64,000 bases of DNA, from contig NZ_CP047117.1 of assembly GCF_030440535.1 (NCBI RefSeq), positions 1,116,001 through 1,180,000 on the forward strand, written 5' to 3'. The stretch comes from Corynebacterium capitovis DSM 44611 (GTDB lineage: Bacteria; Actinomycetota; Actinomycetes; Mycobacteriales; Mycobacteriaceae). The translations under genes and the position numbers were made by a program. Shown here piece by piece: positions 48,070-51,276 of the stretch. The first letter of the stretch is position 1; each line of letters begins with the position of its first letter. The notes below the pieces were generated by a model that was given only the letters and a program-made list of their open reading frames with translations, did no database searches and was not told the DNA's origin.

Positions 48070-50145
48070 GTGACTTCTTCTACTGCGCCATGGGAAGGGT
48101 TTGCTGAAGGCCCGTGGATGGATAACATCGATGTCCGAGACTTCGTTCAGCGAAACTACTCGCCCTTCGATGGTGATGCCTCCTTCCTGGCGGGACCGAC
48201 CGAAAAGACTCTCCGGCTTTGGAACCACTTGGACTCCACGTACCTAGCTGCGGAGCGAGAGCGCCGTGTTTTCGACGTTGACACCGAAACCCCCGCGGAC
48301 ATTGACGCCTTTGGCCCCGGGTACATCTCCGAGGATGACGACGTCATCGTCGGCCTTCAAACTGACGTGCCGACGAAGCGCGCGATGATGCCCAATGGCG
48401 GGTGGCGCATGGTTGAACAGGCGATCCGTGAGGCCGGGAAAGAGCCCAACCCGGAGGTTAAAAAGGTATTCACCAGGTACCGCAAGACCCACAACGACGC
48501 GGTCTTTGACATCTACACGCCCCGCATCCGCGCGGCCCGTTCCGCGCACATCATCACCGGATTGCCCGACGCCTACGGCCGTGGCCGGATCATCGGTGAC
48601 TATCGCCGGGTGGCCCTCTACGGTGTCGACGCGCTCATCGAGCAAAAAGAGCAAGCCAAGGACGCCTGCCTGGGACAGGAGTTCTCGGAGCACTGGGCCC
48701 GCTACCGCGAGGAGCACTCCGAACAAATCAAGGCGCTAAAGAAGCTTAAAACGATGGCCCAGAGCTACGGTTTCGACATCTCGGGGCCAGCCACGACGGC
48801 CCGGGAGGCGGTGCAATGGACCTACTTCGGCTACCTCGCATCCGTCAAGAGCCAGGATGGTGCCGCAATGTCGATCGGGCGCCTGTCCCCCTTCCTCGAT
48901 ATCTACTTCGAGCGCGATGTGGCCCGCGGGATTCTCGACGAATCCTCCGCGCAGGAGATCATTGACGCGCTGGTCATCAAGTTGCGGATCGTGCGATTCC
49001 TCCGTACCGAGGACTACGACCAGATCTTCTCCGGCGACCCATACTGGGCCACCTGGTCGGATGCCGGCTTCTCCGAGTCGGGCCGCCACCAAGTGACGAA
49101 GACGTCGTTCCGTCTTCTCCAAACGCTGCGTAACCTCGGGCCCGCCCCTGAACCCAACATCACCATCTTCTGGGACCCCTCTCTGCCCCAGGGTTACAAG
49201 GAATTCTGCGCGGCAATCTCGATTGAGACATCCTCGCTCCAGTACGAATCGGACCGCCAGATCCGCGACAAGTGGGGAGATGACGCCGCGATTGCCTGCT
49301 GCGTCTCTCCCATGCGCGTGGGCAAACAAATGCAGTTCTTCGGCGCCCGAGTCAACGCTGCGAAGGCGCTACTCTACGCCATCAACGGCGGGCGCGACGA
49401 GGTAACGGGGAAGCAGATAACGACCGGTCACACACCGATCGAGGGTGACGGCCCGCTTGATTTCGACGAAGTCTGGCAAAAGTACGAAGAAATATTGGAT
49501 TGGGTGGTGGGCACCTATGTCGAGGCGCTCAACATCATCCATTACTGCCACGACCGGTACGCCTACGAGTCCATTGAGATGGCGCTCCACGATTCGGACA
49601 TCCTCCGCACGATGGGGTGCGGCATCGCGGGCCTGTCGATTGTGGCCGACTCCCTCTCTGCCATCAAGTACGCGAAGGTCACGCCAGTGCGCGATGAGAC
49701 CGGCCTCGTCGTCGATTATGTCACCGAGGGCGACTTCCCCTTCTACGGCAACGACGACGACCGAGCCGATGACATCGCCGCGACCGTCGTTCACACCGTG
49801 ATGGACAAGATCAACCACCTGCCGATGTATCGCGACGCGATGCCGACTCAGTCCGTGCTGACGATTACCTCCAACGTCGTTTACGGCAAGGCGACCGGCG
49901 CCTTCCCCTCCGGGCATAAGGCCGGCACCCCATTCGCGCCCGGCGCCAACCCGGAAAACGGACGCGATACCCACGGCATGGTCGCTTCCATGCTCTCCGT
50001 GGGCAAGCTGGACTACAACGACGCACTCGACGGTATCTCGCTGACCAATACCATCACCCCGTCTGGCCTGGGTCGGACGAAGAACGAACAGGTGACCAAT
50101 CTCGTCGGCGTGTTGGACGCCGTCTTCATCATGGACGACAACTGA
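48070..50145 (+). CDS. pflB: Pyruvate formate-lyase large subunit, without glycyl-radical domain
   Basis: Catalytic part of pyruvate formate-lyase, which splits pyruvate with CoA into acetyl-CoA and formate. The 691-residue protein starts at GTG 48070 (AAGGA upstream) with [20 protein letters not shown], matching the start of E. coli PflB (760 residues). The active-site pair Cys410-Cys411 is in [13 protein letters not shown]. It ends at [15 protein letters not shown], which aligns with E. coli NLAGLMDGYF, just before the glycyl-radical domain. RVSGYAV is absent and is supplied by the next gene in another reading frame. The protein cannot work alone. Confidence 0.95.
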
Positions 50146-50156
50146 GGAGGATCCCC

Positions 50157-50411
50157 ATGTCACGCACCCCAACTTTCGATGAGCGTCTTGCCGATATGAA
50201 GGCATCGCGCAGCAACCACCACATGGACTCTGGGCTCTATCACGCCAACATTAACGTGTTGGACGAGACCACGCTGGTTGACGCGATGGAACACCCCGAG
50301 AACTACCCCAATCTCACGGTGCGCGTATCGGGTTACGCCGTGAACTTCGTCAAGCTCACCCGCGAGCAGCAGCGCGACGTCATTTCCCGCACTTTCCACC
50401 AAAACGCCTAA
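50157..50411 (+). CDS. Detached glycyl-radical subunit of pyruvate formate-lyase (GrcA-like)
   Basis: An 84-residue protein equal to the C-terminal glycyl-radical domain of PFL. Residues 28-84 match E. coli PflB (NVNVMNREMLLDAME... RVSGYAV... QQDVITRTF): [20 protein letters not shown], then RVSGYAV with the radical Gly59, and [16 protein letters not shown]. Residues 1-27 are not found in PflB. It has its own GAGGAGG site overlapping the large-subunit stop and a clean ATG. It resembles the rescue protein YfiD/GrcA but here is the only radical domain available. pflA follows within two bases. Confidence 0.94.
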
Positions 50412-50412
50412 C

Positions 50413-51276
50413 ATGACGCGCGACGGTACAACGGGGATCGTCTCGATCGCCCCCGAGCAGGGCGAGCGCGTCCGCGGGGTCGCCGCGGGCTTAGGCGGCA
50501 CCGAAGACTTCGCCAGGCCAGAGCTTCTCGACGCCCGTCGCGCCGGTGAAATCGGGTTAGTCCATTCCTGGGAACTGGTTACGGCGGTAGACGGCCCCGG
50601 GACGCGAATGACGGTGTTCATGTCCGGCTGCCCGCTGCGCTGCCAGTACTGCCACAACCCCGACACCATGGAGATGCGGGAAGGGACCGTCGAGCGGATC
50701 GACGACGTCGTAAAGCGAGTGCTGCGGTATAAGCGCGTTTTCGATGCGTCCGGCGGCGGGTTGACCGTGTCGGGCGGCGAGCCCCTGTTTCAAATTGAGT
50801 TCACCAGGCGCCTGCTTCGCGCCGTCCATGACGCCGGCGTCCACACCGCGGTGGACACGTCAGGGTTTCTCGGCTCACGGTTAACCGACTCCGACCTTGA
50901 CGTTGTCGACCTCTTTCTCCTAGACGTGAAGTCAGGCAGCGAAGAGACCTACCAGTGCGTCACGTCGCGCACGCTGCAACCCACGATCGACTTTGGTGAT
51001 CGGCTCCGCCGCGCGGGCAAGCGCGTTTGGGTGAGGTTCGTGCTTGTCCCAGGTTTGACGGACGCTCCGGACAACATTCGCGGGGTCGCCGATATCGTGG
51101 CCCGCTGGTCGGATAACGTTGAACGGGTTGAGGTGCTCCCCTTCCACAACATGGGGGCCGACAAGTGGCACCGGATTGGAATGCCCTACACATTGACGGC
51201 AACCGCTCCCCCTTCAGCGCAGGCAGTTGAGGACGCACGGAACGTTTTCCGCTCCCGCGGCCTGCAGGTGTTCTAA
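50413..51276 (+). CDS. pflA: Pyruvate formate-lyase activating enzyme
   Basis: Radical-SAM activase that abstracts hydrogen from the PFL glycine. The 287-residue protein has the cluster motif CPLRCQYC (CxxxCxxC) in MSGCPLRCQYCHNPDTM, TVSGGEPLFQ for SAM binding, and LLDVKSG. It carries about 40 extra N-terminal residues relative to the 246-residue E. coli enzyme, ahead of the conserved GLVHSWELVTAVDGPGTR. The ATG at 50413 begins one base after the radical-subunit stop (TAAC-ATG), so the operon pflB-radical subunit-pflA is tightly coupled. Confidence 0.96.
   Translation: MTRDGTTGIVSIAPEQGERVRGVAAGLGGTEDFARPELLDARRAGEIGLVHSWELVTAVDGPGTRMTVFMSGCPLRCQYCHNPDTMEMREGTVERIDDVVKRVLRYKRVFDASGGGLTVSGGEPLFQIEFTRRLLRAVHDAGVHTAVDTSGFLGSRLTDSDLDVVDLFLLDVKSGSEETYQCVTSRTLQPTIDFGDRLRRAGKRVWVRFVLVPGLTDAPDNIRGVADIVARWSDNVERVEVLPFHNMGADKWHRIGMPYTLTATAPPSAQAVEDARNVFRSRGLQVF

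Follow-up and report, generated by a model that had tools for sequence, protein, structure and literature searches.

The pyruvate formate-lyase (PFL) of E. coli, PflB (TIGR01255; PDB 1H16, 2PFL), is a single chain; at the locus described here its parts are distributed over two genes. E. coli YfiD/GrcA and phage T4 Y06I (TIGR04365; PDB 6OWR) are free-standing glycyl-radical domains able to complete a PFL from which this domain is missing, a capacity that the small protein described below would share. GrcA acts as a repair part in cells in which full-length PFL is made as well, and its first 60 residues are disordered (PMC8683613), whereas the Corynebacterium partner of the small protein lacks the domain in all but one of the genomes read. 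According to the same report, E. coli PFL cut after residue 695 and supplemented with YfiD has an activity equal to that of the wild type once it has been activated. Binding of YfiD to this cut protein (1-695) was not measurable by ITC, and activation was 32-fold less (PMC8683613). The report counts 2142 sequences annotated as GrcA, of which only YfiD and Y06I are given as characterised, and uses the term 'putative spare parts' (PMC8683613).

The PFL locus of Corynebacterium capitovis and its neighbourhood

The locus lies in a 64,000-nucleotide stretch of the Corynebacterium capitovis DSM 44611 genome, referred to here as the window. Its features are as follows.

48070..50145, plus strand: large PFL subunit, 691 aa, from open reading frame analysis, with the GTG taken as the assigned start
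49297..49302, plus strand: codons of Cys410-Cys411, equivalent to E. coli C418-C419, from sequence reading and alignment
50145..50150, plus strand: AGGAGG, the ribosome-binding motif for the small gene, which overlaps the stop codon that ends the large gene, from sequence reading
50157..50411, plus strand: small subunit, 84 aa (NCBI name GrcA2), comprising an extension and a glycyl-radical domain, from NF008341 and PF01228
50157..50231, plus strand: N-terminal extension, residues 1-25 of the small subunit, with R10, M14 and R18 invariant and a predicted helix at 7-20, from alignment and AlphaFold2
50331..50333, plus strand: codon of Gly59, the predicted radical site, equivalent to E. coli G734, within VSGYA, from alignment
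50413..51276, plus strand: PFL-activating enzyme PflA (radical SAM), 287 aa, from TIGR02493 and PF04055

The frame of the large gene extends from the assigned GTG start at 48070 to the TGA at 50143-50145 and encodes 691 residues. Residues 18-606 match the PFL barrel profile PF02901 with a score of 653 bits, and residues 622-686 correspond to positions 1-65 of the Gly_radical profile PF01228. Against TIGR01255, the large protein alone scores 972.5 bits over residues 8-687, below the cut-off of 994.2, and the match ends at position 679 of the 744 in the profile. With respect to this family, the barrel and the adjacent cysteine pair are present in the large protein; a single chain that carries the radical motif and reaches the cut-off is not. 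Residue 686 aligns to residue 693 of E. coli PFL and is followed by five further residues, so that the chain ends close to where E. coli PFL was truncated in the engineered 'tPFL' (1-695). Two PDB chains named formate acetyltransferase, 38la (687 aa) and 38lb (739 aa), match the large chain and are absent among the matches of the small chain.

The small gene begins at an ATG with AGGAGG just upstream, in a reading frame different from that of the large gene and separated from it by 11 nt. The 106 positions of the Pfam Gly_radical profile are divided cleanly between the two proteins: positions 1-65 fall in the C-terminal part of the large protein, positions 65-106 in the small one. Residue 25 of the small protein aligns to residue 700 of E. 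coli PFL, and the split site on the E. coli protein falls at about position 694-699. The profile NF008341 ('autonomous glycyl radical cofactor GrcA2') scores 164.7 bits against the small protein, over its cut-off of 145, and all 44 small proteins that we aligned match it at E up to 0.001. The GrcA profile TIGR04365 gives 82.2 bits, short of the 170 that define that family, and the full-length partner that a GrcA would repair was found neither in the same genome nor, one fused strain excepted, in 242 Corynebacterium genomes. An initial sequence-only reading of this DNA had proposed a two-gene split, with the cysteine pair at 410-411 and Gly59 on a separate protein of 84 residues, and this is confirmed by the reading frames and the profiles. 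It had also proposed that the small gene lies in another frame with a ribosome-binding site of its own, which is borne out by the AGGAGG at 50145-50150. In its account the first 27 or so residues of the small protein had no match in PflB; an extra segment is indeed present, but its length is about 24-25 residues, as residue 25 already aligns with position 700 of the E. coli enzyme.

The product of the adjoining pflA gene scores 290.9 bits with TIGR02493 (cut-off 231.75) and contains the PF04055 radical SAM domain, which places it in the PflA family. No further PFL was found with PF02901 in the 1.98-Mb single-contig genome, and no further glycyl-radical protein, of the NrdD type or other, was found there with PF01228. 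The sequence-only reading had reported no full-length copy in the window; the absence of an intact pflB extends to the genome searched with these two profiles. A search of the genome for a FocA-type formate channel was negative; acetate kinase was found. A pflA gene is located within 600 nt downstream and on the same strand in 45 of 50 split loci, the window included. The others comprise L092 and L102, both split loci of Cellulomonadaceae, in which no pflA was found in the 4500 and 1229 bases examined downstream; L081, where pflA is about 1.8 kb away; L079, where its projected start overlaps the small gene; and L082, where just 147 bases remain downstream. In our view it is very probable that PFL is encoded here by two genes, one for a barrel protein of 691 residues and one for a radical-bearing protein of 84 residues, which likely form one enzyme with the small subunit activated by the neighbouring PflA.

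Split and fused junctions in Corynebacterium and other genera

A Gly_radical match was obtained in 123 of 242 Corynebacterium genomes, 118 of which have the PFL radical half and five an NrdD-type match only; the PFL barrel was found in 117 of the 242. The one genome with a radical half that is absent from the barrel list, G557, has junction DNA identical to that of C. phocae (L087). In C. phocae (L087:3820-4743; L153 from G557 is the same DNA) the small gene is kept and the large gene is degenerate, with two remnants detected by tblastn. Class III ribonucleotide reductase NrdD is encoded at the Corynebacterium loci L006, L007, L142-L146 and L148.

All 118 junctions were read, and the call of fused or split was made from this reading rather than from the length of the open frame, as the search itself read through stops. 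The gene pair, sought in other members of the genus as the sequence-only reading had suggested, proved to be split in 117 of the 118 genomes with a radical half and fused in one. In the 117 split junctions the gap has a median of 40 nt and a range of 3-287 nt, the three relative frames are represented 48, 39 and 30 times, and the small gene starts with ATG in 114 cases and GTG in three. A ribosome-binding motif of four bases lies within 18 nt in 115 of these 117, compared with 21% of 18-mers drawn at random from these loci. These differing gaps and frames exclude an assembly error at the junction and, together with the ribosome-binding motifs, uphold the earlier opinion that the split is not a simple frameshift. 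The fused case is Corynebacterium sp. Marseille-P4321 (L154, the same DNA as L065), in which the stop codon of its relatives is replaced by a tyrosine codon. This strain has retained both the ribosome-binding motif and the start ATG of its small gene (L065:3750-3900). Unless the fusion is a sequencing error, Marseille-P4321 could make both the fused protein and a free small chain. As to fused genes in related strains, one was found among the 118, the remaining 117 being split; ordinary full-length PFLs occur in other genera.

With the exception of this fusion, no single-chain PFL was seen in the 242 Corynebacterium genomes. The best Gly_radical match outside the fusion, at 5.3e-23, is of the NrdD type, compared with about 3.6e-35 and 1.6e-34 for full-length PFLs. 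Because no single-chain enzyme was found, the small protein is better read as an obligatory subunit than as a spare part. At the level of genomes, the earlier claim that the radical domain is obligatory is supported by the counts of barrel (117 of 242) and radical half (118 of 242), with the fusion as the only full-length match seen.

Among the 80 named loci closest to the small protein, which are the most similar ones and not a random sample, 49 are split (L087 being counted as such despite its degenerate large gene), L065 is fused and carries the extension, and 30 are ordinary full-length genes. The split was found in Corynebacterium and in 13 other named genera: Actinomyces, Schaalia, Trueperella, Arcanobacterium, Actinotignum, Varibaculum, Brachybacterium, Helcobacillus, Dermabacter, Zimmermannella, Rothia, Pseudactinotalea and Propionibacterium. 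Full-length PFLs are found, for example, in Bifidobacterium, Streptomyces, Sanguibacter and Cellulomonas. In a sample of 394 genomes drawn from the class, 44 had a match, and in three of these it was over the GrcA2 cut-off. The 149 genomes in the family of genome G141 gave nine matches, four over that cut-off, and the junction at L034 is split. An actinobacterial-type PFL was also seen in a record labelled Oscillospiraceae (Bacillota; L114), which reflects either horizontal transfer or a wrong label.

A tree was calculated from 66 concatenated rows, 49 of them split (with L065 labelled split) and 17 full-length; it omits 13 of the 17 Bifidobacterium, L066 and L087, whose large part is short, and L123, in which the motif was not found. 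On this tree there are two changes of state, against a mean of 15.3 when states are shuffled. The best tree found in which all split rows are placed together has a log-likelihood 12.84 higher than that of the free tree (p-AU 0.712), and a single origin is therefore not rejected. A single origin is also favoured because the extension is common to the split lineages. The arrangement probably arose once in the Actinomycetota, when a full-length PFL was divided where its radical-bearing part begins.

Over the 55 positions compared, the radical domain of the window has 41-46 identities with actinobacterial full-length PFLs (29 compared), 36 with E. coli GrcA and 35 with E. coli PflB. E. coli GrcA has 44 of 55 identities with the best split small protein, 44 of 55 with E. 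coli PflB and at most 40 with the actinobacterial full-length PFLs. In a tree of the 55 columns E. coli GrcA and E. coli PflB group together with an SH-aLRT of 99. The suggestion that GrcA2 and E. coli GrcA may be separate inventions is weakly supported, because E. coli GrcA is as near to the best split small protein as to PflB.

The N-terminal extension of the small protein

T6, R10, M14, K15 and R18 show little or no variation in the alignment of 44 small proteins, and R10, M14 and R18 are present in all 44. When 97 distinct extensions were counted without gaps, a set that omits one small protein lacking the search motif, 96 had R, M and R at positions 10, 14 and 18; in the single exception, L103, one extra residue shifts the register. 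A helix at residues 7-20 is predicted by AlphaFold2 with modest confidence (pLDDT of the whole protein, 69.5), and the spacing i, i+4, i+8 would place the three residues on one face of it. In the 97 small genes pN/pS is 0.36 for the extension helix, 0.57 for the next seven codons and 0.16 for the radical domain. The codons of the extension are under purifying selection, which is laxer than that on the radical domain.

In full-length relatives (e.g. L122) about three residues bridge the two halves. The split proteins carry extra sequence in comparison, a short tail on the large chain and an extension of 22-25 residues on the small one. The extension has a weak resemblance to the last helix of PFL: the junction ranks fifth of 727 positions for the full-length proteins and fourth of 674 for the split ones. 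The score is reached by 34 and 18 of 5000 column-permuted profiles, respectively, but also by 35 of 721 and 28 of 668 protein stretches at seven offsets. Duplication of the 3' end of a PFL gene, with this last helix, is no more than a possible source of the small protein. A structure model of the L065 fusion has a pLDDT of 28-54 over residues 701-740, where the junction is poorly aligned; in the alignment behind this model MAFFT put the last PFL helix, as present in large and full-length proteins, opposite the extension of the small ones, and residues of about 680-720 were covered by one row.

The N-terminal helix, with R10, M14 and R18, is a candidate for an element that docks on the large chain. 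This conjecture would answer the difficulty that a bare split is expected to work badly, as suggested by the unmeasurable YfiD binding and the 32-fold loss of activation of the E. coli 1-695 protein.

Alternative explanations, proposed mechanism and comparison with known systems

The small protein might instead be a spare part that repairs oxygen-damaged full-length PFL, in the manner of E. coli YfiD/GrcA. Its match to the 'autonomous glycyl radical cofactor GrcA2' family over the cut-off, its weak match to GrcA (82.2 of 170 bits) and the identity of E. coli GrcA with some split small proteins, which reaches 44/55, are all in keeping with this. However, without a full-length PFL in the genome, or in any of the 242 Corynebacterium genomes bar one fusion, there is no radical-bearing part that the large chain could lose, and the radical domain of the window is nearer to the actinobacterial full-length PFLs (41-46/55) than to E. 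coli GrcA (36/55). We consider this explanation very unlikely. A second enzyme that the small protein might also, or mainly, serve is another glycyl-radical enzyme such as NrdD. An NrdD-type Gly_radical match is present in 15 of the 242 genomes, ten of which have the PFL pair; nine of these 15 matches were scanned, and eight of the nine proteins, those of the NrdD loci listed above, are NRDD; the ninth, L147, gave no match in the frame scanned, which was not that of the hit. Against such a role, the window genome has no NrdD-type match, nor do 108 of the 118 genomes with the PFL pair, and the small gene is placed between the gene for the PFL barrel and pflA. It appears highly improbable.

Joining of the two frames in translation, through programmed frameshifting or stop readthrough, would also yield a full-length PFL. 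Many split pairs are close together, and L065/L154 is a single open frame, but gaps of 3-287 nt and frames distributed 48/39/30 over 117 junctions leave no constant slippery site or readthrough geometry, and the small gene has a ribosome-binding motif in 115 of the 117. The pair could likewise be a decayed or misassembled pflB peculiar to the window genome, since split genes are often frameshifts or sequencing errors; in C. phocae the large gene is degenerate. This reading is countered by the recurrence of the split, which is found in 117 of the 118 Corynebacterium genomes with a radical half and also in 13 further named genera, and by the pattern of substitution in the small gene, which is that of purifying selection. 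Both of these explanations are exceedingly improbable. Programmed frameshift, readthrough, pseudogene and assembly error were ruled out as candidates by the junction readings across genomes.

For the two-gene enzyme we infer assembly of two chains, PFL activity, and replacement of the small chain after damage by oxygen. In the mechanism that we propose, the small chain would contribute the strand and loop found at residues of about 700-759 in E. coli PFL and so complete the barrel, while its N-terminal helix (R10, M14, R18) would dock on the large chain. PflA would then abstract a hydrogen from Gly59 of the small chain, and catalysis would, as in E. coli, proceed through Cys411/Cys410. A catalyst made of two chains is credible because the natural split is at about the same point as the tPFL cut. 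Oxygen would cleave the chain at Gly59, so that the small chain alone would be spent and a new copy would take its place; that the damaged part alone is renewed is a reasonable inference. More speculatively, the radical cofactor may have been turned into a disposable subunit, docked by a helix, activated, burnt by oxygen and swapped while the barrel is reused, which would allow facultative Actinomycetota to run a glycyl-radical enzyme at the edge of oxygen. We give this wider picture slightly less than an even chance of being right.

If the proposal is true, the covalent link between the barrel and the radical domain is dispensable, and the split PFL would offer a clean system for the study of docking, activation and post-oxygen replacement of a glycyl-radical domain. 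The arrangement is not peculiar to the window genome, and NCBI already lists the small protein under a family name, GrcA2. There are also consequences for annotation. The large protein resembles a shortened PFL and its partner carries the name of a spare part, yet together, in Corynebacterium and likely also in the other split genera, they would be the only PFL of the cell.

No account of a split PFL or of GrcA2 was found in the open-licence literature of PubMed Central, a body of text in which most subscription journals are not included. PFL and the free glycyl-radical domain are both known kinds; the obligatory two-gene form is a variant for which no description was found in that literature. 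The name of NF008341 implies an autonomous spare, whereas the Corynebacterium partner lacks the radical domain in all but one of the genomes read. The closest likeness is to the engineered tPFL (1-695) with YfiD, for which the split PFL would be a natural counterpart: the cut point is nearly the same and the two-chain idea is shared (PMC8683613). The pair of tPFL and YfiD is laboratory-made and shows poor binding and activation (PMC8683613), whereas in the natural pair the small chain brings a conserved, predicted N-terminal helix of its own.
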